Notes under the pieces: generated by a model
Database searches by the model: none
Told to the model about the DNA's origin: nothing
The model's input: only the letters and a program-made list of their open reading frames with translations
Made by a program: the position numbers and the translations under genes
In this document: piece by piece, positions 15,865 to 35,471 of the stretch
How positions within the stretch are numbered: position 1 is the stretch's first letter
Layout of the letters: every line of letters begins with the position of its first letter
NCBI GenBank assembly: GCA_012840135.1
Contig: DUMA01000036.1
Location: 1-64,000, forward strand
DNA: 64,000 bases
Direction: 5' to 3'
Source: Thermoanaerobacterales bacterium
GTDB lineage: Bacteria; Bacillota; Thermosediminibacteria; Thermosediminibacterales; Tepidanaerobacteraceae

Positions 15865-15977
15865 GTACCGGCGATGGGAGCGAGAAAACATGGTAATAAA
15901 TGGCAATAGTTACAGAAAGAAGGAAATCAGAGATAAAAATCGAAATAATTTATAAGACCGGTTATTCGGAGGAAAAG

Positions 15978-16682
15978 ATGAAAGATTTCGGTTTAAATGA
16001 GAGGGTCCTAAAAGTAAAAGATGATGCCGATGAAATCAGCAGGCTAATCGAAGAGTACAAGCCCTTTATAGCATCCGTCGTGGAAAAACACGTAGGTCAC
16101 TACGTTGAATACGGCAGGGATGATGAGCTGAGCATCGCATTGATGGCTTTTCATGAGGCTGTGGAGAAGTACGATATAGCTAAAGGAAATTTTTTATCTT
16201 TTGCGAGGATGACCATAAAACACCGTCTTGTGGATTTTTACAGGCGGGAGCCCAAAAATGTATCGATGGTTTACCTGGACAGCACTGATGATGAGGAAGA
16301 CGAGAGCTATCGTGACATAACCTTCGATAAATCTTTAAAAGAGTATGATGAACGGCAGATAAGCGAGCTCCGGCGGTTGGAGCTTGTGGAAATGAAAAAT
16401 GAGTTGTCACAATGGGGTATTACCTTTGCCGATGTGGCAAGAAGTTCGCCGAAGCAGGAGTCCACCAGAAAGGCATATCTGAAAGCGGCGAATTTTGTGA
16501 TAAAATCTCCGGAAGTGCTGGAAATAATGAAAACAAAGAGATATTTGCCGGTGGACAAAATTGTGAAGGCTACAGGAATACCCCGCAAAACGGTGGAGCG
16601 TGGTCGGAATTATATAATAGCGGCAGTGCTTATATTATCCGGAGACTATCAATATATTAGAGAATATATACAGTGGAGGTAA
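15978..16682 (+). CDS. sigI: RNA polymerase sigma factor SigI
   Basis: About 234 residues. The region-2-like part carries EEYKPFIASVVEKHVGHYVEYGRDDELSIALMAFHEAVEKYD and FLSFARMTIKHRLVDFYRRE, the diagnostic SigI core. The C-terminal helix-turn-helix contains VDKIVKATGIPRKTVERGRNYIIAAVLI. I chose ATG 15978, placed after GGAGG; the upstream ATG at 15900 lacks a good site. The anti-sigma gene follows 6 bases later. SigI controls heat and wall stress in Bacillus and polysaccharide degradation in cellulolytic Clostridia. Confidence 0.88.
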   Translation: MKDFGLNERVLKVKDDADEISRLIEEYKPFIASVVEKHVGHYVEYGRDDELSIALMAFHEAVEKYDIAKGNFLSFARMTIKHRLVDFYRREPKNVSMVYLDSTDDEEDESYRDITFDKSLKEYDERQISELRRLELVEMKNELSQWGITFADVARSSPKQESTRKAYLKAANFVIKSPEVLEIMKTKRYLPVDKIVKATGIPRKTVERGRNYIIAAVLILSGDYQYIREYIQWR

Positions 16683-16688
16683 GATTCT

Positions 16689-17831
16689 TTGAAAGCCATT
16701 ATCGTTGACAGGAACGACAGATTTCTTATCGTTCTGGACAAAAAAGGCGACTTTATAAAAATATATAACAGCATTCCCGATTGTCAGATCGGGGACGAAG
16801 TCGATATTCCCGACAAGATGCCGTTATTTGGACTTTTCCCTGGGGGGCTGATTGCTTTTGCTCCATTGAGAAAAATGGTGGCGGCTCTTGTGGCTTTTCT
16901 GCTTTTGCTGGGGATGGGCGGCTACGCCATTGCTGATTATTTTACACCTGTGACCTTCGTCACTATGGATATAAATCCCAGTGTGGAACTGGCCCTAAAC
17001 AGATATGAAAGGGTACTAAGCGTGAATACTTTTAATGAAGAAGGAAATCTTCTGGCAAAAGATGCAGGTTCTTTCAGAAACATGAAGGTGGAAGATGCCA
17101 TTAAAAAACTTCTGGACCGGGCGGAAGCTCAAAACTACCTGAAAACTCAGGGCACCCTTATGTTCACGGTTTCCAGCGTGAAAAATAATGTGCCCGATGA
17201 GCTTGACAAGAAGCTGAAAGAAGCGATAAAAACCCGGCCGAACATCAAAGTGGTAGTGGAGAATACCACCATTGAAAAACATGAGGAAGCCAGGAAAATG
17301 AACATTTCCCAGGGCAAGCTCCTGATATATGAAAGATTGAAAAAGATAAATCCCGGGATCACCCTTGAAGAAATTAAAAAATCGCCGGTATCTCGGATGA
17401 TGGAACAGCTGAATAGACCTCTTTCGGACAGGGAAAAAAATCTAACAGAGAAGAAGGATGAAAAAAAGACGGGTTCAAAAGTCCCGGAGGCAAGCAAAGG
17501 AAAGTCCGATTCAAACACTAATGGGAATTCCACCGAAAAAATGAGGAGAAAGTTTGAAAAAGTAGAGACTCCGGAAAATTTGAATAAAAATAATGGGTTA
17601 AAATTGCCGGATAAAAAAAGTCATACGAACAAATCTTCGATTGATATTATAAATATTGAGGAAAAGAAGAACATAGACATGTCGGATACAATCGAAAAAT
17701 TTAAGGAAGATGCTGGCAAAAAGGAGCATAAAGATAAAAATGAGACATTTAGGGAACAAAGGGATCAAGGACGCGGAAAAGAGGGAGATCGAAGATTTTT
17801 TAACAATTACACGAAAGGCAACGGAAAATAA
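16689..17831 (+). CDS. rsgI: Anti-sigma-I factor RsgI-like membrane protein
   Basis: A 380-residue single-pass protein. The cytoplasmic RsgI N-terminal domain (about 1-55: KAIIVDRNDRFLIVLDKKGDFIKI) binds SigI, and a membrane segment follows (about 60-82). The extracellular part starts with TFVTMDINPSVELALNRYERVL, the conserved juxtamembrane beta domain that undergoes cleavage in signalling. After about residue 230 the chain becomes Lys/Glu/Asn-rich and of low complexity (EKKDEKKTGSK..., GKSDSNTNGNS). No carbohydrate-binding module is visible, unlike the sensors of cellulolytic Clostridia. It starts at TTG 16689. Confidence 0.85.
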   Translation: MKAIIVDRNDRFLIVLDKKGDFIKIYNSIPDCQIGDEVDIPDKMPLFGLFPGGLIAFAPLRKMVAALVAFLLLLGMGGYAIADYFTPVTFVTMDINPSVELALNRYERVLSVNTFNEEGNLLAKDAGSFRNMKVEDAIKKLLDRAEAQNYLKTQGTLMFTVSSVKNNVPDELDKKLKEAIKTRPNIKVVVENTTIEKHEEARKMNISQGKLLIYERLKKINPGITLEEIKKSPVSRMMEQLNRPLSDREKNLTEKKDEKKTGSKVPEASKGKSDSNTNGNSTEKMRRKFEKVETPENLNKNNGLKLPDKKSHTNKSSIDIINIEEKKNIDMSDTIEKFKEDAGKKEHKDKNETFREQRDQGRGKEGDRRFFNNYTKGNGK

Positions 17832-17979
17832 AAGATATGATGGATGCTAGAAAAAGCATAAAAAAGTAATGTAAAAAGTTATATAGCAAAACAGGAAATA
17901 CTTGAAGAATTACAGAAGAGAACATAGGGATGGCAGGATTTAAAAGTTTTTTCTTGTCAAGGATTGCAAATCTTTGATA

Positions 17980-18012
17980 TTGCGACATATTGTGACATAT
18001 TTCACATATAAT
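17980..18012 (+). promoter_or_regulatory. Putative Rex/CRP-FNR-type operator before the V-ATPase operon
   Basis: TGTGA-CATATT-TCACA at 17991-18006 is a perfect TGTGA-N6-TCACA inverted repeat. The left half is preceded by a direct repeat, so TTGCGACATAT and TTGTGACATAT lie in tandem (17980-18000). The site sits about 40 bases upstream of the -35 of the promoter at 18047. Rex (TTGTGA..TCACAA) and CRP/FNR proteins both bind such sites. Which regulator acts is inference. Confidence 0.5.
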
Positions 18013-18046
18013 CGAAAATAATTTGGGTATATATAAAAATTTTAAT

Positions 18047-18075
18047 TTGAATTTTTTTTATCAATGTTATATAAT
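18047..18075 (+). promoter_or_regulatory. Sigma-A-type promoter of the V-type ATPase operon, apparently leaderless
   Basis: TTGAAT at 18047-18052, exactly 17 bases, TATAAT at 18070-18075. A start of transcription about 7 bases downstream (near 18082) would leave only a few bases before the ATG at 18086, and no Shine-Dalgarno sequence is present there. Confidence 0.55.
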
Positions 18076-18085
18076 ATAAAACAGT

Positions 18086-18307
18086 ATGAAGAATTATAAG
18101 GGTATCCAATATCTAGTATTGTTATCCCAAATAGGTCTCAATATGGCACTACCCATAGTAGGTGGTGTGTACGCTGGAGCCTATCTGGATCAGAGGTTTT
18201 CCACGGGTAGCGCTTTTTTAATTTTAGGGACCTTTATGGGAGTCTTCTCAGGAATAGCCGGAGTATATCGGCTCATATCGATTGAATTCAGAAAAAAAAG
18301 CAAATAA
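18086..18307 (+). CDS. AtpZ/AtpI-type small membrane protein
   Basis: 73 residues with two hydrophobic helices: QIGLNMALPIVGGVYAGAYLD, a short loop RFSTGS, then FLILGTFMGVFSGIAGVYRLI. This is the AtpZ/AtpI fold, known next to F-type ATPase operons and linked there to ring assembly or Mg2+ handling. Here it heads a V-type operon, 19 bases before the stalk subunit gene. The start codon lacks a ribosome site and lies immediately after a promoter, so translation may be leaderless. A downstream ATG (18143) would remove half of helix 1 and is less likely. Confidence 0.7.
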   Translation: MKNYKGIQYLVLLSQIGLNMALPIVGGVYAGAYLDQRFSTGSAFLILGTFMGVFSGIAGVYRLISIEFRKKSK

Positions 18308-18325: not shown

Positions 18326-18652
18326 ATGTTGAGGGAGATTCTGGAGGATGTCAAAGCCACGGAACAGAGGGCCAGGCAACTGGTAGAAGAAGCCGAACAG
18401 CAGTCGAAAACCATCATTTTAAATGCAAAAAAAGAAGTCGAAAAATTAATTCTAGAACAAAAAAAGAGAAGTGATGAGGAAGGCGCCAGGATAATACAAA
18501 AAGCCAGGGCAGAGGCGGAGGAACAGGCGAAAAATCTTTCAAAGAAATATGAGCAGGAGATAAAGGAATTGAAACTTAAGGCCGCCAATAAAATACCCCA
18601 GGCGGTCCAATTGATTAAAGAGAGGATAGTGAAGGCCCATGGCGATAGTTAA
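18326..18652 (+). CDS. ntpF: V-type ATPase peripheral-stalk subunit G/H
   Basis: 108 residues, almost entirely a heptad-patterned charged helix rich in Glu, Lys, Ala and Gln (for example VEEAEQQSKTIILNAKKEVEKLI). It matches the small stalk subunit of A/V-type ATPases (AhaH, NtpF, Thermus G), which pairs with subunit E to form the stator coiled coil. The name of this subunit differs between organisms. ATG behind GGAGGTGG. It overlaps the start of subunit I by 14 bases. Confidence 0.8.
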   Translation: MLREILEDVKATEQRARQLVEEAEQQSKTIILNAKKEVEKLILEQKKRSDEEGARIIQKARAEAEEQAKNLSKKYEQEIKELKLKAANKIPQAVQLIKERIVKAHGDS

Positions 18653-20570
18653 TATGAAAAAAATGCACCTTTTGGGCCTTAAAAATGAGCAGGACAAAAT
18701 CTTGAGCACCATTCAGAAAACCGGTGCTGTAGAGGTTATAGACATAACACAGCAGGTGCCGGAACATGAGGTGCAGCAAATTCAGATTCACCAGGGTTTG
18801 GAAAAGGAACTGTCTGAACTGGACTCCAAATTAAGCAAACTTAAATTTGGAATTGACTTTTTAAAGCCCTATGTCATGGAAAAAAATCCTCTTTTATATG
18901 GAAGGCCGGCGGTTCAAAAAGAGCAGCTCGATGAAATGCTCTCCCGGGAAGACCAGTATTTTACGACTCTCCAGGCTATTTCCGGATTGGAACAGCGGCT
19001 TTCTCACCTAAAGGGAGAGGAGTCCAAGATAAACAACCGTATAGAATTATTGTCTTCGTGGGAGAATCTGGATATTCCCCTGGAGCAACTGGGTCACACC
19101 GAAAAAACCGAGTTTTTGCCCATTGTTGTTCCGATAAAGGCTTTTGAGGATTTCAAGAACAGGTTGAAAGATAGACAGCTTTCTGCCGAAGTTATGACCA
19201 TCGGGGGAAACCGGGATGAAACATTTGGCCTGCTTATTTACTACAGGGCTCAAAAGAGCGAACTGCAGGATATTATGAAGGAATTTTCTGTGAGTGTCCA
19301 GGAGTTTTCGGGTCTAAAGGGTACCCCCCGGGAGATAATAGCCCGAGATAAGGAGAGGCTCTCCGGCATAGAAGCCGAAAGGCAGGGCATAAAGCGGGAA
19401 GCCCAGGCTCTTGCTGACCAGCGGTTTTTCTTCGAGGTATTGTACGATTACTGGAGCGTTGTCAGGGACAAGAAACAAAATATGCTCAAGATGGTGGGAA
19501 CACGAGATACCTTTTTACTGACCGCATGGGTGCCGGAGCCCCTGGAAGATAAACTTAAACAGAGGATTCTCGATACCACTGATGCCGTATATATCGAGTT
19601 TTCACCGCCGGAAGAGGGTGAAGAAATACCGGTGATGCTCGAAAATCCCAGGCTTGTCCAACCTTTCGAACTCATTACCGAACTATACAGTTTGCCTGAT
19701 CCCAAAGGTTTGGATCCAAACCTTTATATGGCACCTTTCTACTTCATATTTTTTGGTATGATGGTCAGTGATGCCGGATACGGTCTGGTGCTGTCGCTGC
19801 TGACTGGACTTGCCCTCTGGAAATTGAAGCTGGCAGGCCAGGGCAAGAAACTGGTAGAGCTTCTGTTTCTTGGAGGCATATCCACCTTTATCTGGGGAGC
19901 CATTTTTGGAGGCTGGTTTGGAGACCTCATAAAACTAAAACCCCTCTGGATAAACCCGCTGGACAATCCCATGGCCATACTGGTATTGAGCTTTGCCTTT
20001 GGTGTCATACAGATATATGCAGGCTTGTTGCTCTCTGCCTATAAGAATATCAGGGCGGGACGTACAGCCGATGCCTTTATGGATCAAGGGCTCTGGATAG
20101 TATTTCTGTCGGGCCTTATAATGCTGGCCTTCCCGCAGCTTGGCTTTATAGCTAAATACGTAGCCTTCGCCGGTGCCCTGGGCTTGCTTTTAACTCAGGG
20201 AAGGGCCCAAAAAAGCATTGTGATGAAGTTTTTATCCGGTCTCTTAAGCCTTTACGGTGTCACGGGGTATTTGAGCGATGTGCTGTCATATTCCAGGCTG
20301 CTGGCCCTGGGCCTTGCTACCGGAGTTATTGCGGTGGTGATAAACACCATGGCAAGACTCGTAGGGGTAAATGCCATCGGAGTGATTATCATGATTATAA
20401 TCATGATAGGTGGACACATCTTCAATATCGCCATAAATACCCTGGGTGCCTATGTGCACAGCAGCCGTCTGCAGTATATAGAGTTCTTCAGCAAGTTTTA
20501 CGACAGCGGTGGAAGAGCCTTCGACCCCATGAAGGTAAAAACCACCTATGTTGACTTTGAAAATTTATAA
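18639..20570 (+). CDS. ntpI: V-type ATPase membrane subunit I (a-type)
   Basis: 643 residues. The cytoplasmic half (about 1-330) has two coiled coils (from residue 45 and around 230-260) that link stator and membrane. The membrane half (about 355-640) has eight segments. FFGMMVSDAGYGLV and YLSDVLSYSRLLALGLATGVIA are the conserved ion-channel helices, the latter with the essential Arg facing the ring. The C-terminus YIEFFSKFYDSGGRAFDPM is typical. It starts inside the previous gene. Confidence 0.93.
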   Translation: MAIVNMKKMHLLGLKNEQDKILSTIQKTGAVEVIDITQQVPEHEVQQIQIHQGLEKELSELDSKLSKLKFGIDFLKPYVMEKNPLLYGRPAVQKEQLDEMLSREDQYFTTLQAISGLEQRLSHLKGEESKINNRIELLSSWENLDIPLEQLGHTEKTEFLPIVVPIKAFEDFKNRLKDRQLSAEVMTIGGNRDETFGLLIYYRAQKSELQDIMKEFSVSVQEFSGLKGTPREIIARDKERLSGIEAERQGIKREAQALADQRFFFEVLYDYWSVVRDKKQNMLKMVGTRDTFLLTAWVPEPLEDKLKQRILDTTDAVYIEFSPPEEGEEIPVMLENPRLVQPFELITELYSLPDPKGLDPNLYMAPFYFIFFGMMVSDAGYGLVLSLLTGLALWKLKLAGQGKKLVELLFLGGISTFIWGAIFGGWFGDLIKLKPLWINPLDNPMAILVLSFAFGVIQIYAGLLLSAYKNIRAGRTADAFMDQGLWIVFLSGLIMLAFPQLGFIAKYVAFAGALGLLLTQGRAQKSIVMKFLSGLLSLYGVTGYLSDVLSYSRLLALGLATGVIAVVINTMARLVGVNAIGVIIMIIIMIGGHIFNIAINTLGAYVHSSRLQYIEFFSKFYDSGGRAFDPMKVKTTYVDFENL

Positions 20571-20576
20571 ATTTAA

Positions 20577-21080
<504 letters not shown>

Positions 21081-21093
21081 GGGAGTGGCCGGC

Positions 21094-21696
21094 ATGGAGG
21101 GTATCGAGAGGATTAAAGAAAAGATCATGCAGGAGGCCCGGGAAAAAGAGCAGCAAATTTTGAATGAAGCTAGGGCCGAGGCCGATCAGATTCTGAAAAA
21201 CTCCGAGCAAACAGCGGAGGAAATAAAGCAACAATCCCTTCAAAAAGCCAAGAGGCAGGCTGAAGAGGAAAAGAGGAAGATTCTTTCCATGGCCGAACTT
21301 GAGGAGAGAAAGGGGTTGCTTCAGGCAAAACAGCAGATTATAGACGAGGTATTTGATAAAGCCCGTCAGGAACTGGCGAATTTGCCGGCGGAAGATTACC
21401 GGCAGTGGTTTTGTGAAATGCTGCTGGAAAACTCCGTCACCGGTGATGAGGAAATAATCATCGATGAAAAGGACAAATCCAGGATAACACCGGACCTGTT
21501 GGCAAAGGTCAATGAAGAACTTAAAAAACGGGGTAAATCCGGCAACCTCAAGATTTCTGCAAAGACCCGTCCCATGATAGGCGGTTTTATTCTGAAAGCC
21601 CGGGATATGGAGATTAATAGTACATTTGATTCACTGATCAAATTGCAGAGAGAAGAATTGGAGACCGGAATTGCGAAAATACTTTTCGAGGAGTGA
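21094..21696 (+). CDS. ntpE: V-type ATPase peripheral-stalk subunit E
   Basis: 200 residues. The first 100 form a long charged coiled coil (EAREKEQQILNEARAEADQIL) that pairs with the G/H subunit. The C-terminal globular part ends with RPMIGGFILKARDMEINSTFDSLI, the conserved signature of subunit E that caps the catalytic head. ATG 21094 is chosen because GGAGTGG precedes it; the longer frame overlaps subunit K. Confidence 0.88.
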   Translation: MEGIERIKEKIMQEAREKEQQILNEARAEADQILKNSEQTAEEIKQQSLQKAKRQAEEEKRKILSMAELEERKGLLQAKQQIIDEVFDKARQELANLPAEDYRQWFCEMLLENSVTGDEEIIIDEKDKSRITPDLLAKVNEELKKRGKSGNLKISAKTRPMIGGFILKARDMEINSTFDSLIKLQREELETGIAKILFEE

Positions 21697-21700
21697 TACT

Positions 21701-22705
21701 ATGGGCAGGGAAATGGAATTTTTATATGTGTCGTCCCGGATCAAGGCCCTGGAGACCAGACTCCTCGGTAAAAGCGCTATAGACAGGATACTGGAGGCTG
21801 ACGGGCCGGAAGAAGCCCTGAAGGTGCTGAGCGATACTGATTATGGCGCCGATATCGCCGAAATGGAAAATATCTATGATTTTGAAAAGGTCCTGGAAAA
21901 AAGCCTTAAGAGGACTTTTAAAACCATAGCCGATTCCATGAAAGATTATCGCTTCATAAGGTTTTTCACACTGAAGAACGATTACCATAATCTGAAGATA
22001 ATTATCAAGAACAAAATTCTTGGGTTTGAAGGTAAGGATTATTTTTCATCCCTGGGGGAAGTTCAGATCGAAGAACTTCAAAAGCTTGTTTCGGAAGATG
22101 TGACGGCTGCGGTCCCCGAAAACATGAAAGTGGCCTATAAAAGAGCCGTTGAAATATACGAGGATACCAGGGATCCCCAGCAGATTGACCTGCTGGTGGA
22201 CCGCATGCTGTTTGAAGAACTGGCAAGGCTTGTGGATGATACCGGGGAGGAATTTTTAAGAGAGTATTTTACTTCCTGGGTGGATCTTACCAACATCAGG
22301 ACTGTTATAAGGTTGATGCATATAAAAGCGGAAACAAGGGTCCTGGAAAGATCCCTCCTTCCTGGAGGCAGCATTAAAAAGGATGTATTTGTGAAGCTCT
22401 ATGGCGAGCCCATGCAGGGTGTGATAGATGCCCTTGCCGCATCGCCATACCATAGAGTGGTGGAGGAAGGGGTTTCCGCATGGGCCAGTAATGGCAGCCC
22501 TGCCGTTTTTGAAAAGTTGTCGGATGACTACCTGCTTAAACTGGCAAGGCGCGGGCTTTATAAACCTTACGGTCCCGAGACTGTGGTGGGTTATCTTGCA
22601 GCTCGTGAAAACGAGGTGAAGCTCCTTAGAATGATACTGGTGGGAAAGATAAATGGCATCTCCTCGGAGATGATAAAGGAGAGGTTGAGAGATGTCTACG
22701 TATAA
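21701..22705 (+). CDS. ntpC: V-type ATPase subunit C (d-type)
   Basis: 334 residues of the V-ATPase C/AC39 family, the funnel-shaped collar between rotor ring and central stalk. It opens with FLYVSSRIKALETRLLGKSAIDRIL and ends with GYLAARENEVKLLRMILVGKINGIS, both family signatures. ATG 21701 follows GAGGAGTGA. It overlaps the F subunit by 14 bases. Confidence 0.88.
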   Translation: MGREMEFLYVSSRIKALETRLLGKSAIDRILEADGPEEALKVLSDTDYGADIAEMENIYDFEKVLEKSLKRTFKTIADSMKDYRFIRFFTLKNDYHNLKIIIKNKILGFEGKDYFSSLGEVQIEELQKLVSEDVTAAVPENMKVAYKRAVEIYEDTRDPQQIDLLVDRMLFEELARLVDDTGEEFLREYFTSWVDLTNIRTVIRLMHIKAETRVLERSLLPGGSIKKDVFVKLYGEPMQGVIDALAASPYHRVVEEGVSAWASNGSPAVFEKLSDDYLLKLARRGLYKPYGPETVVGYLAARENEVKLLRMILVGKINGISSEMIKERLRDVYV

Positions 22706-23027
22706 AATAGGCGTAATCGGTGACAAAGACACGGTCCTTGCCTTCAAGTCTCTGGGAGTGGATATCTTTCCGGCCATGGACGAAAAGGAAGCCGGCTCCA
22801 TGCTCGCTCAGCTTGCAAAGCAAAACTATGCCGTGATATTTATTACGGAGCAGCTGGCAAAAAACATGAAAGAAAGGATAGATATGTACAGGAGCAGAAT
22901 GCTGCCGGCCATAACGCTTATACCCAGCAACAGAGGTTCAATCGGAATTGGAATGCAGGAAGTAAAAAAATCCGTGGAAAAAGCCATAGGAGTGGATATC
23001 TTATTTGAAAGAGAGGGAGAGGAATGA
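22692..23027 (+). CDS. ntpG: V-type ATPase central-stalk subunit F
   Basis: 111 residues. The start [25 protein letters not shown] and the central [14 protein letters not shown] give the Rossmann-like fold of subunit F, which sits beside subunit D in the rotor shaft. The C-terminus has [14 protein letters not shown]. It overlaps both neighbours, so it is coupled to C and A. Confidence 0.88.
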
Positions 23028-24799
23028 GCCATGGAGTTGTAGTTAAGGTTTCCGGTCCTCTCGTGGTGGCCACGGGATTGCCCGAGGCCAAAATGTTCGA
23101 CGTGGTGAAAGTGGGAAAGCAGGGCCTGATTGGAGAAGTCATAGAGGTGCATGGAGAAAAGCTCTCCATTCAGGTTTATGAGGAGACTTCGGGACTGGGT
23201 CCCGGGGACCCGGTCATATCCACGGGAGTCCCCCTCAGCGTTGAACTGGGACCGGGAATGCTGGAAGGAATTTTTGACGGAATTCAAAGGCCGCTGGATG
23301 TCATAGAATCCAAAGCCGGCAGTTTTATAACAAGGGGAATAGATGTTCCAGCATTAAACCGCGATAAAAAATGGGCCTTCAAGCCCACCGCCAAAAAAGG
23401 CGATAGGCTCACGGGCGGAGATATCATAGGTACCGTGCAGGAAACCGTCATAGTGGAGCACCGCATCATGATACCCCCGGGAATATCCGGAACCTTGGTA
23501 GATATCAGGGAGGGCGAGTTTACGGTGACGGAGCCCGTGGCAAAACTCAAGACCGACAAGGGTGATATCATCGATATAACCATGATGCAAAAATGGCCTG
23601 TGAGGAAGATAAGACCGTACAGGGAAAAACTTCCCCCGGAAGAACCCATGGCCACGGGCCAGAGGGTAATAGATACCTTCTTCCCCGTCACCAAGGGAGG
23701 AACCGCCTGTATTCCTGGGCCCTTCGGCAGCGGCAAGACGGTGGTGCAGCACCAGCTGGCCAAGTGGGCCGATGCCGAAATAGTGGTATATATCGGCTGC
23801 GGAGAGCGGGGCAACGAGATGACCGATGTGCTTCTGGAGTTTCCGGAGCTAAAAGATCCCAAGACCGGCGAACCCCTTATGAAGAGGACGGTGCTCATAG
23901 CCAACACCTCCAACATGCCGGTGGCCGCCCGGGAAGCGTCCATATACACCGGCATCACCATAGCGGAGTATTTCAGAGACATGGGATACAGTGTGGCACT
24001 CATGGCCGATTCCACATCCCGCTGGGCCGAAGCTCTTCGCGAGATGTCCGGAAGGCTTGAGGAAATGCCCGGTGAAGAAGGATACCCGGCGTATCTTTCC
24101 AGAAGGTTGGCGGAATTCTATGAGAGGGCAGGAAAAGTTATATGCCTCGGCAGCCAGGAGCGGCAGGGAGCCCTTACTGCAGTCGGCGCTGTGTCGCCAC
24201 CGGGCGGAGACCTTTCGGAGCCGGTAACCCAGGCTACCCTCCGGGTGGTGAAGGTATTCTGGGCTCTGGACGCGCAGCTTGCCTATGCAAGACACTTCCC
24301 GGCCATCAACTGGCTTACCAGCTATTCGCTGTACTCCGATACAGTTGAAGAGTTCATGAATAAAAACATCAGCCCTGAGTGGCACGACCTGAGAACCGAA
24401 GCCATGAAGCTTTTGCAGGAAGAGGCGAGCCTTCAGGAAATAGTAAGGCTGGTAGGTATAGATGCCCTTTCCGTAAGGGACAGGCTGGTGCTGGAGGCGG
24501 CAAAATCCATCAGGGAAGATTTCCTGCATCAAAACGCTTTCCACGAGGTAGACACCTACACGTCTCTAAACAAGCAGTACCGCATGCTGAAATTGATACT
24601 GCTGTTTTATCACGAATCACAAAAAGCCATAGATCAGGATGTAGTGTTTTCCGAGATAGAACAACTGCCGGTAAGGGAAAAGATCGCAAGAGCCAAGTTT
24701 ATCGATGAAAAAGAACTGGAAAAGTTCGACGAGATAGAAAAAGAATTGAAAGACCAGATAGCGGAGCTTCTTTCGGAAGGAGGGAGAGTGAATGCTTAA
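23024..24799 (+). CDS. ntpA: V-type ATPase catalytic subunit A
   Basis: 591 residues. The Walker A motif GPFGSGKT is at residues 232-239. The extra 'non-homologous' bulge domain (about 110-190), present only in A/V-type catalytic subunits, is visible, so it is not an F-type beta subunit. The catalytic Glu lies in [36 protein letters not shown] and the C-terminal helical domain are intact. The ATG overlaps the end of F (ATGAG), and the last bases overlap subunit B by 8. Confidence 0.96.
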
Positions 24800-26174
24800 G
24801 GAATACAGGACAGCCCGTGAAATTGCCGGCCCTCTGATGCTGGTGGAAAATGTGGAGGGCGTGAAATACAATGAACTGGTAGAAATAGAGACTTCCGAGG
24901 GAGAAATCCGCCGGGGACAGGTGCTGGAAATTGACGGCGATAAGGCTCTGGTACAGCTCTTTGAAGGCTCCACAGGCCTCAACATTAACGACTGCAAGGT
25001 AAGATTTCTCGGGAAAAGCATAGAGCTAGGGGTATCCATCGACATGCTGGGCCGTGTATTCGACGGTTTCGGCAGGCCAAAGGATAATGGCCCCAGAATA
25101 ATACCGGAAAAGAAACTGGATATCAACGGCAGCCCCATAAACCCCACGGCCCGGGACTATCCTTCGGAATTCATCCAGACGGGGATCTCCGCCATCGACG
25201 GCCTGAACACCCTGGTCAGGGGGCAGAAGTTGCCCATATTCTCGGGTTCGGGTCTTCCCCATGCCCAGCTGGCGGCTCAGATAGCGAGACAATCCAGAGT
25301 CCTGGGCACTGAGAGCAAATTCGCCGTGGTATTTGCGGCCATGGGCATAACCTTCGAAGAAGCCGATTACTTCATATCGGACTTCAGAAGGACCGGTGCT
25401 ATAGACAGGTCGGTACTATTCATAAACCTGGCCAACGATCCGGCCATTGAGCGCATAGCCACGCCGCGCATGGCCTTGACCTGTGCCGAGTTTCTGGCCT
25501 ATGAAAAGGATATGCATGTTCTGGTCATTTTGACGGATATGACCAACTATTGCGAAGCTCTCCGGGAGGTCTCCGCCGCCCGCAAGGAGGTTCCGGGCCG
25601 GCGCGGTTATCCTGGATATCTCTATACGGACCTTTCGACCATCTATGAAAGGGCGGGCCGTATCCGCGGAAAGGCAGGTTCCATCACCCAGATTCCGATT
25701 CTCACCATGCCTGAAGATGACAAGACTCATCCTATTCCTGACCTTACCGGATACATCACGGAAGGACAGATTATATTGAGTCGAGAGCTCTACAGAAAAG
25801 GGGTTTTGCCTCCCATCGATGTGCTGCCGTCCCTTTCCCGTCTGAAGGATAAGGGCATCGGCAGAGGCAAGACCCGGGAAGACCACGCCGACACCATGAA
25901 CCAGCTCTTTGCCTCTTACGCCAGGGGCAAACAGGCCAAGGAACTGGCGGTAATCCTTGGTGAGGCGGCCCTTTCCGACGTAGATAAGCTCTATGCGAAA
26001 TTTGCGGATGAGTTCGAAAAGAGGTATGTCTCCCAGGGCGAAAATGAGGATAGGTCCATAGAAGAAACGCTCAATCTGGGGTGGGAACTTCTGACAATAC
26101 TGCCTAAACTGGAGCTCAAGAGAATCAGGGACGAATACATTGAAAAATATCTGCCGGAAAAAGGAGAAGAATAA
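24792..26174 (+). CDS. ntpB: V-type ATPase regulatory subunit B
   Basis: 460 residues; the non-catalytic partner of A in the hexameric head. It has the B-type sequence [17 protein letters not shown] in place of a complete Walker A, plus [21 protein letters not shown] and [33 protein letters not shown], typical of V/A-type B subunits. The C-terminus ends with helical [24 protein letters not shown] precedes ATG 24792 within the end of A. Confidence 0.96.
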
Positions 26175-26176
26175 AC

Positions 26177-26803
26177 ATGTTGATGCGGGTAAACCCCACC
26201 CGGATGGAGCTGACAAGACTCAAAAAGCAGCTTGTGACCGCTAGAAGGGGCCACAAGCTCTTGAAAGACAAGCAGGATGAACTAATCAAGAAGTTCATCG
26301 ACATGGTGAAAAAGAACAAGGAACTTCGAGAAGAGGTGGAACGGGAGCTGGAAAGCGCCTTCAAAAGCTTTACCATGGCCCGCAGCCAGATGCCCCAGGA
26401 GGTGCTGGAGGAAAGCCTCATGATTCCCGCAGCCAGGGCCAGCATCGGCATATCGAAGGCCAACATCATGAGTGTCAATGTTCCGAAGATAGAGATATCC
26501 AGCGAGGAGGGAGGCAACATTTACTCTTACGGTTTTGCCCAGACTTCCGTCGAGCTGGATAACGCCATAGGCATCCTTGCCGGCATGCTGCCTAAAATGC
26601 TCAGGCTTTCGGAAATAGAGAAGGCCTGCCAGCTCATGGCCGATGAAATAGAAAAGACCCGCCGCCGGGTCAATGCCCTGGAGTATGTCATGATTCCTTC
26701 CCTAGAAGAGACCATAAAATACATCACCATGAAGCTGGACGAAAACGAGCGCGGCAATATTACGCGCCTCATGAAGATAAAGGAAATGGTGATGAACGGG
26801 TAA
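26177..26803 (+). CDS. ntpD: V-type ATPase central-stalk subunit D
   Basis: 208 residues, two long antiparallel helices that form the rotor shaft. MRVNPTRMELTRLKKQLVTARRGHKLLKDKQDEL is the classic start and RRRVNALEYVMIPSLEETIKYI the classic end. It is the last gene of the operon (order: AtpZ-like, G/H, I, K, E, C, F, A, B, D), with a hairpin 60 bases downstream. Confidence 0.93.
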   Translation: MLMRVNPTRMELTRLKKQLVTARRGHKLLKDKQDELIKKFIDMVKKNKELREEVERELESAFKSFTMARSQMPQEVLEESLMIPAARASIGISKANIMSVNVPKIEISSEEGGNIYSYGFAQTSVELDNAIGILAGMLPKMLRLSEIEKACQLMADEIEKTRRRVNALEYVMIPSLEETIKYITMKLDENERGNITRLMKIKEMVMNG

Positions 26804-34443: not shown

Positions 34444-34833
34444 ATGGAAAGTATGAACAGGGATTTTGCACGGATTCTCCGGGAAAGCAGTTTTATATCA
34501 CTGGCGGCAGCGCTTTCGGCACTGCTGCTGGACAAAGACGGGCGGTGGGCTCTGGGACTTTTGGCAGGGTCTCTAGCGTCGAATATAAATTTCTCTTTAC
34601 TGTATATGAGCATTGTAAAATCGGTGAAAACGGATCATCGACGGGCATTCATCTTTGTGTATGGCATATATCTTGTGCGAATTGAGGTTATCATGAGCGT
34701 GTTATTGATTTGCCTGAAGGCTGGATTTGATATTTTTATATCGTCAGTTTTGGGATTGATGGTAATAAAACTCGTCATGTTTTCAAATACTATCTCTGGG
34801 AGGTGGAAAAGGTGGAATTCTTCCCAAAGGTAG
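34444..34833 (+). CDS. atpI: ATP synthase protein I
   Basis: 129 residues with four hydrophobic helices (for example SFISLAAALSALLLD, ALGLLAGSLASNINFSLLYMS). This is the UncI/AtpI family, a weakly conserved chaperone-like helper for c-ring assembly or Mg2+ supply. It overlaps the start of atpB, the normal place for atpI. The ATG at 34444 follows AGGTGA. The pairing with an AtpZ-like gene at the head of the V-ATPase operon is noteworthy. Confidence 0.75.
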   Translation: MESMNRDFARILRESSFISLAAALSALLLDKDGRWALGLLAGSLASNINFSLLYMSIVKSVKTDHRRAFIFVYGIYLVRIEVIMSVLLICLKAGFDIFISSVLGLMVIKLVMFSNTISGRWKRWNSSQR

Positions 34834-35471
34834 TTTTTGTTTTCCCTTTATTTGGCATGAATATCCCGGTGACGGAGACTGTAGTGGTAACATGGGGAAT
34901 AATGGCAGGATTGATGATTTTCGGGTATGTGGCCGGGAGAAACTTTGAAAAGATACCGCGTGGGCTTCAAAATGCGGTGGAAATACTTTATGAAGGGTTG
35001 GAAAGCCTGCTCAAGTCCACCATGGGAGAAGGTAGTGAGGGATTTGTGCCGTATATTGGTACGCTGGCGATGTTTTTGTTTGTTGCCAACCTCATAGGTT
35101 TGCTGACCTTCAGACCGCCCACGGCAGACCTGTCCACCACTCTTGCCCTGGCGGGAATCACATTTGTGCTTACACAATATGAAGGCTTAAAGAGGAAAGG
35201 GATAGTCGGGTATATCAGGGGATTCTTCGAACCCCTTCCTTTCATGGCTCCTCTGAACATTATAGGCCAAATAGCCAACCCGGTATCTTTAGCCTTCCGC
35301 CTTTTCGGCAATATCCTGGGCGGTATGATAATAATGAATCTGATATATTCTGTAGTTCCGGTGCTGATCCCGGCGCCATTGCATTTTTATTTCGATGTCT
35401 TCGCGGGTATTCTTCAAACTTTTATCTTTATCATGCTAACCATGACCTTTGTGGCTTCAGCCGCCGACTAG
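34812..35471 (+). CDS. atpB: F-type ATP synthase subunit a
   Basis: About 219 residues with five or six membrane helices. NPVSLAFRLFGNILGG contains the essential Arg that faces the c-ring; the last helices FYFDVFAGILQTFIFIMLTMTFVASAA complete the half-channels. GTG 34812 is chosen because GGGAGG (34798-34803) is 8 bases upstream; GTG 34803 overlaps that site. Order atpI-B-E-F-H-A-G-D-C is standard. Confidence 0.92.
   Translation: MEFFPKVVFVFPLFGMNIPVTETVVVTWGIMAGLMIFGYVAGRNFEKIPRGLQNAVEILYEGLESLLKSTMGEGSEGFVPYIGTLAMFLFVANLIGLLTFRPPTADLSTTLALAGITFVLTQYEGLKRKGIVGYIRGFFEPLPFMAPLNIIGQIANPVSLAFRLFGNILGGMIIMNLIYSVVPVLIPAPLHFYFDVFAGILQTFIFIMLTMTFVASAAD

Follow-up and report, generated by a model that had tools for sequence, protein, structure and literature searches.

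Footprints of Rex in S. avermitilis cover TTGTGATACGGTTCACGA at atpI and TTGTGACCTGCTTCACAT at nuoA1, both between promoter elements (PMC5355995). The motif of T. ethanolicus Rex, the protein of the solved structures 3wg9 and 3wgi (PMC8836258), is given as ATTGTTANNNNNNTAACAAT, i.e. ATTGTTA-N6-TAACAAT (PMC5886521). Rex motifs of the TTGTGA type have been described for Caldicellulosiruptor and, as predictions, for Calderihabitans. In T. maritima, the Rex-DNA structure shows Arg48 and Lys49 in contact with the operator bases Gua5 and Gua7 (PMC8836258). For HcpR of Desulfovibrio, the motif is wTGTGAnnnnnnTCACAw, which has been linked to residues R180 and E181, with hcp and frdX as the published target pair (PMC1274295). 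The V-ATPase genes of Caproicibacterium lactatifermentans are up on lactate, a condition for which the authors suppose a greater supply of NADH (PMC9600882). Rex control of a V-type ATPase was not reported among the full-text matches listed, and we do not claim its absence from print.

We describe a palindromic site in front of a V-ATPase operon in a 64 kb stretch of DNA, the whole of which we call the window. We put at roughly 60% the probability that this site is a Rex operator, probably bound by the Lys-type Rex protein of the same genome (L005), which would repress promoter P1 of a predicted Na+-type V-ATPase operon until NADH rises.

The palindrome and the operon behind it

A preliminary description of this DNA had claimed a perfect TGTGA-N6-TCACA palindrome upstream of the V-ATPase operon, and this claim was borne out: the palindrome, TGTGACATATTTCACA, occupies 17991-18006, is the sole match without mismatch in the window and falls within the 254-base gap between the end of rsgI at 17831 and the ATG of the V-ATPase gene1 at 18086. 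The features of the locus are as follows.

15900-17831, + strand: upstream neighbours, a sigma factor gene (Sigma70_r2, 15900-16682) and rsgI (16689-17831)
17980-17985, + strand: TTGCGA, the tandem half-site of the preliminary description, perhaps a -35-like element
17990-18007, no strand assigned: operator TTGTGACATATTTCACAT, an 18-mer with the palindrome core at 17991-18006, from sequence and conservation in relatives
18007-18012, + strand: TATAAT, -10 box of the putative promoter P1, abutting the operator, from sequence and conservation in family f1
18047-18075, + strand: promoter P2, TTGAAT-17-TATAAT, 10 nt before the gene1 ATG, from a consensus scan
18086-18307, + strand: gene1 (PF09527, ATPase_gene1; family match), probably leaderless
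18326-18652, + strand: V-ATPase subunit G/H-like (match below the family cut-off)
18639-20570, + strand: V-ATPase subunit I
20580-21080, + strand: V-ATPase subunit K, nearest among solved structures to the K ring of the V-type sodium ATPase (2bl2)
21016-21696, + strand: V-ATPase subunit E
21671-22705, + strand: V-ATPase subunit C
22692-23027, + strand: V-ATPase subunit F
23024-24799, + strand: V-ATPase subunit A
24792-26174, + strand: V-ATPase subunit B
26177-26803, + strand: V-ATPase subunit D

The operon thus runs in the order gene1, G, I, K, E, C, F, A, B, D. For subunit K, the match to the sodium-type K ring (2bl2) has E = 4.5e-40, and the PGTQG, AQG and VETYA blocks, which we take to carry the Na+ ligands, align; by this likeness of the K subunit, the enzyme is predicted to be of the Na+ type. 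A sigma factor/RsgI anti-sigma pair stands directly upstream of the operon, and in relatives as well an rsgI-like gene ends there; the operator lies after rsgI and not in front of the sigma factor and rsgI genes. No terminator-like structure was found in 17832-18120.

Two more ATPase operons, which make three in one genome (two V-type, one F-type), were seen. One, encoding an F-type ATP synthase, is also in the window, 16 kb downstream of the V-ATPase operon (34444-35471 onwards, with an AtpI/AtpR-like gene and the a subunit at 34803-35471). The other is a second V-type operon; it was recognised by its reading frames on another contig (C33, locus L256), where it adjoins dihydroxyacetone kinase-like genes. 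The same control of these two operons was considered and rejected, there being no Rex-type palindrome in front of either.

Conservation of the site and its place at the promoters

Loci of V-ATPase subunit I were compared from 22 genomes of the family and the order (Thermosediminibacterales); named relatives whose subunit I is 76-79% identical carry the title Tepidanaerobacteraceae. Twenty of the 22 were assessable, the contigs of the other two (G005 and G011) stopping short of the region. Upstream of the V-ATPase operon, the palindrome is perfect in 16 of the 20, has one mismatch in G020 and G002 and is missing from G014 and G019; a one-mismatch match in G019 sits inside the rsgI coding sequence and was dropped, with the numbers recomputed. 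Over 17 aligned sites (the 16 perfect ones and that of G020, the G002 site with its inner base A being excluded from the conservation count), the ten fixed bases hold 1.97 of 2 bits vs. 0.43 for the flanks. Within these 17 sites, the T preceding TCACA is invariant (17/17), and the base following TGTGA is never A (0/17), with the next base being A in 16/17. Beyond the order, four class-level relatives yielded no match better than two mismatches. In one genome (L141, G010:C1:2177800-2184800), the V-ATPase promoter is separated from rsgI by a transposase-like ORF of 639 residues, on either side of which lies a copy of a ~60-bp direct duplication that bears the operator (sites 488 and 2775).

The preliminary description had also named a motif frequency no higher than chance as a refutation. 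Looser matches in the window (up to two mismatches) were at chance level, with 20 found vs. 19.5 expected, and the window's own genome (3.18 Mb, 56 contigs) holds 4 exact copies vs. 2 for the reversed-pattern control, so that the own-genome count does not by itself exclude chance; across the 22 genomes, exact copies numbered 65 vs. 16 for the control. That the palindrome is a real site is confirmed, the proof resting on its conservation rather than on the own-genome count.

The site had been placed just upstream of the promoter, which proved not to be so, as the operator abuts a TATAAT at 18007-18012. This hexamer follows the palindrome immediately in every family-f1 genome whose site is perfect (10/10), so the operator overlaps the promoter by sequence in this family; in family f2, an abutting TATAAT was found in 0/7. 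In 6 of the 10 f1 genomes, the spacing from a -35-like hexamer to TATAAT is exactly 17 bp, with the hexamer at about the position of the tandem half-site, so in these six genomes the operator would fill the spacer of P1. In the window, TTGCGA precedes TATAAT by 21 bp, as compared with 17 bp in G003 and G008. The -35 of P1 is poor in the window's own genome, and a consensus promoter scan did not report P1, with a scan count (4) not clearly above that of shuffles (2.6). The tandem half-site TTGCGACATAT, which had been suggested to support cooperative binding, is present at 17980-17990, yet we rejected this role, as the copy at 17980 is not conserved in the sister genome G001 and in relatives resembles a -35 element.

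Nearer to gene1 lies promoter P2, the block of which was found in the 16 upstream regions listed, of 20 tried. The gene1 ATG is situated ten nt past a perfect -10 box with no evident Shine-Dalgarno sequence (18047-18086), an arrangement that recurs in relatives. Because the P2 block stands ten bases before the ATG and is kept in relatives, the gene1 mRNA is probably leaderless. We also rejected a CRP-like protein as a class I activator of P2, the distance from palindrome to P2 being ~70 to 120 bp with no fixed spacing.

In the reading that we favour, NAD+-bound Rex, in all likelihood L005, would cover the spacer and -10 box of P1 and exclude RNA polymerase. With a rise in NADH, Rex would be released and P1 opened, resulting in more expression of the Na+-type V-ATPase operon, while P2, ~60 bp closer to the gene and free of an operator, would provide a basal transcript. 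In relatives, alcohol dehydrogenase and hydrogenase-maturation genes may show the same response to NADH.

Two look-alike site classes and their candidate regulators

Outside the V-ATPase loci, the exact palindrome recurs in two sets, at hcp (11 genomes) and at a ferredoxin-like gene resembling frdX (10 genomes), with one hcp member confirmed by NCBIfam and the frdX-like gene named by resemblance; in f1 genomes, the frdX-like site also faces a divergent gene. We therefore weighed an alternative in which a CRP/FNR-family protein, the HcpR-like L007 with the helix SRETVTR, reads the V-ATPase site, so that the operon would answer nitrosative stress or another signal. The preliminary description had named Rex and CRP/FNR proteins together, and the genome does hold homologues of both, two of each. 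The V-ATPase site contains the core of the Desulfovibrio HcpR motif, and L007 has R and E at the positions presumed to be R180 and E181 (PMC1274295). In addition, hcp and/or frdX sites occur in 12 of the 13 genomes with a CRP-family protein of the SRETV[TS]R helix type vs. 1 of the 9 without, whereas the V-ATPase site is independent of this type (10/12 with vs. 6/8 without); the Fisher tests on these tallies, with genome types and sites entered by hand, ignore the phylogeny of related genomes, and their p-values are a guide only. G008 was scored among the genomes without the SRETVTR type, an uncertain call, as a contig end truncates one of the three matches there and leaves its helix unreadable; leaving G008 out, the tallies become 12/13 vs. 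0/8 for hcp/frdX and 10/12 vs. 5/7 for V-ATPase.

Other observations likewise separate the two sets. A half of the form TGTGAA/TTCACA occurs in 16/16 perfect V-ATPase sites vs. 0/21 hcp and frdX sites, a comparison that again ignores shared ancestry. The perfect V-ATPase site is kept in five genomes that yielded no SRETV[TS]R-type member (G004, G006, G009, G010 and G012, four of them 99% complete and G009 68%), with G008 as an uncertain sixth. Only the SRETVTR type is present in G001 and G013 and only the SRPSxSR type in G004 and G010, and since the genomes keeping the site do not share any one CRP subtype, a CRP/FNR protein is disfavoured there. These patterns suggest that hcp/frdX sites track a CRP/HcpR-type regulator and the V-ATPase site does not, the two being separate classes. 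We consider control of the V-ATPase by L007 unlikely, and rejected it as first choice on the distribution and inner-base tests.

Of a stricter form of the V-ATPase site, WTGTGABNNNNTTCACW, the 22 genomes contain 42 sites vs. 6 for the control. As classed by us, with some members named by resemblance to a tested one, these comprise 17 V-ATPase sites (16 and one duplicate from the insertion element), 8 at the Lys-type rex gene, 4 at selenium genes, 2 at Fe-ADH, 2 at a YedE-like gene facing a LysR gene, and 1 each at adhE, hydEF, a DeoR-like regulator and an oxidoreductase, with the remaining 5 inside or overlapping coding genes. Known Rex-target genes with the motif are thus rex (8 genomes), Fe-ADH (2), adhE (1) and hydEF (1). 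At adhE and Fe-ADH, the site begins ~9-13 nt after TATAAT, which we read as the position of a repressor. In four genomes of one genus, the operator form lies by selenium genes (yedE in G016, G017 and G020; the selD gap in G015; loci L229, L230, L231 and L232 at about 2501-2569), which suggests redox control of selenium use. A related palindrome is borne by a DeoR/SorC-like regulator gene in G000, G004, G009 and G013 (L222 at 2501; L135, L136 and L154 at 1501).

The preliminary description had proposed a scan for the motif at fermentation genes, and in relatives the form of the site does recur at such genes (adhE and Fe-ADH) and at the hydrogenase-maturation gene hydEF. In the window's own genome, a one-mismatch search for TTGTKA-N6-TMACAA gave 35 sites, fewer than the 45 of the control, so that a Rex regulon does not stand out there by count. 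Two TTGTGA-N6-TAACAA sites in this genome precede a zinc alcohol dehydrogenase gene and a ferredoxin gene with a neighbour resembling CO dehydrogenase; because the same search fell below its control, these sites are weak evidence. Another form, the exact GTTAA palindrome (TTGTTA-N6-TAACAA), occurs 17 times in the 22 genomes vs. 0 for the control, with 14/17 at the promoter of the Lys-type rex gene, where GTTAA-type sites within one mismatch are present in 19/21 genomes. In the window's own genome, the Lys-type rex promoter shows no TGTGA-form site, only the GTTAA type, and the same is true of 8/9 such promoters in family f2.

Two Rex paralogues and comparison with described systems

At least one Rex was found in each of the 22 genomes, with a recognition helix of the Lys type (QVRKDL) in 21/22 and of the Gln type (Q[IV]RQDL) in 20/22. 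The window's genome has both, L005 of the Lys type on contig C37 and L006 of the Gln type; each exceeds the NCBIfam Rex equivalog cut-offs and comprises Put_DNA-bind_N and CoA_binding domains. By our alignment, Gua5 and Gua7 of the T. maritima operator would be the two G's of TGTGA (PMC8836258), and both contact residues, Arg and Lys, are present in L005. A Lys at the base-reading position fits TTGTGA half-sites, and a Gln would fit TTGTTA. With respect to the Rex consensus palindrome TTGTGAANNNNTTCACAA (Clostridia TTGTTAANNNNTTAACAA), TTGTGACATATTTCACAT departs at 2 of the 14 fixed positions and the G016 site at 1; footprinted or bound Streptomyces Rex operators deviate likewise, with 1 to 3 mismatches (PMC5355995).

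A second alternative is that the Gln-type L006, or a Rex heterodimer, reads the site in place of the Lys type. Gln-type promoters in several f1 genomes bear mixed sites such as ATGTTAANNNNATCACAA, and the two TTGTGA-N6-TAACAA sites of the window's genome suggest that one Rex may read both half-sites. However, the Gln type is closest to T. ethanolicus Rex (3wg9/3wgi), with its motif ATTGTTANNNNNNTAACAAT (PMC8836258, PMC5886521), and G005 (88% complete), the sole genome with a Gln type and no Lys type found, has zero stricter sites; we regard this alternative as distinctly doubtful. Recognition of the site by a protein from some other regulator family is improbable: our survey covered Rex and CRP/FNR proteins only and the DeoR/SorC-like gene also bears related palindromes, but the target set of rex, adhE, Fe-ADH and hydEF is that of Rex, and the DeoR-like gene may be just another target. 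That the palindrome is a functionless chance match, as own-genome exact copies merely twice the control would allow, is hardly credible against its perfect preservation in 16/20 relatives amid poorly conserved flanks.

Several observations tell against the Rex operator as well: 1) the Rex consensus has A as the inner base of its left half, an A found in 0/17 sites here, although this main departure from the consensus is tolerated by a real Rex, since the S. avermitilis atpI operator has a non-A inner base (PMC5355995); 2) G014 holds both Rex types and has no V-ATPase site; 3) G002 and G019 hold the Lys type and have zero stricter sites; 4) family f2 has no TATAAT abutting the palindrome (0/7), so that the action proposed for P1 may not apply there; 5) adhE and hydEF each come from one genome and Fe-ADH from two; 6) the own-genome rex promoter is without the TGTGA form, and P1 was missed by the consensus scan. 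Taken with these, the suggestion of a redox operator on a Na+-type V-ATPase in the preliminary description stands well supported as to the redox link, with Rex fitting better than CRP/FNR, and finds no support as to the cooperative half-site and the promoter position.

Tentatively, and at short of even odds, we speculate that the two Rex proteins have split an ancestral motif, the Gln type reading TTGTTAA and the Lys type TTGTGAB-N4-TTCAC, to form a two-tier NADH circuit that singles out the Na+-type V-ATPase. On this view, the Gln type would act through TTGTTAA sites, most of which precede the gene for the Lys-type Rex. The Lys type would have its sites at the V-ATPase and, for some of the relatives, at its own promoter (8/21 genomes) as well as at alcohol, hydrogenase-maturation and selenium genes. 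The F-type and second V-type operons of the same genome are without a TTGTGAB-N4-TTCAC site. Rex control of the V-ATPase operon would tie the NADH/NAD+ state directly to an ion-translocating V-ATPase in anaerobes, and would help explain why three ATPase operons are kept in one genome. The Rex paralogues, side by side in most genomes, offer a natural test of the recognition-helix residue that sets the operator.

Among the systems described, HcpR of Desulfovibrio shares the TGTGA-N6-TCACA core, and hcp and frdX-like genes carry this core here too, but the V-ATPase site differs in inner bases and distribution (PMC1274295). In C. lactatifermentans, the V-ATPase operon is absent from the table of predicted Rex sites in the accessible part of that paper (PMC9600882). 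Rex of Thermoanaerobacter and Thermoanaerobacterium provides a likeness in its targets in thermophilic Clostridia (adhE, adhA and predicted hydrogenase genes), but the reported motif is TTGTTA-N6-TAACAA (PMC5886521), which is found here mostly at rex (14/17) and not at the V-ATPase. The S. avermitilis atpIBEFHAGDC operon (PMC5355995) encodes an F-type enzyme of an actinobacterium, unlike the Na+-type V-ATPase of anaerobic Clostridia described here, where the F-type operon has no such site. Nevertheless, its operator resembles ours in serving an ATP-synthase-type operon, in lying before the first gene and between promoter elements, and in having the same non-A inner base as the G016 site (PMC5355995), and the S. 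avermitilis footprints match the V-ATPase site of G016 at 17/18 positions (TTGTGATACGGTTCACGA) and that of the window at 15/18.
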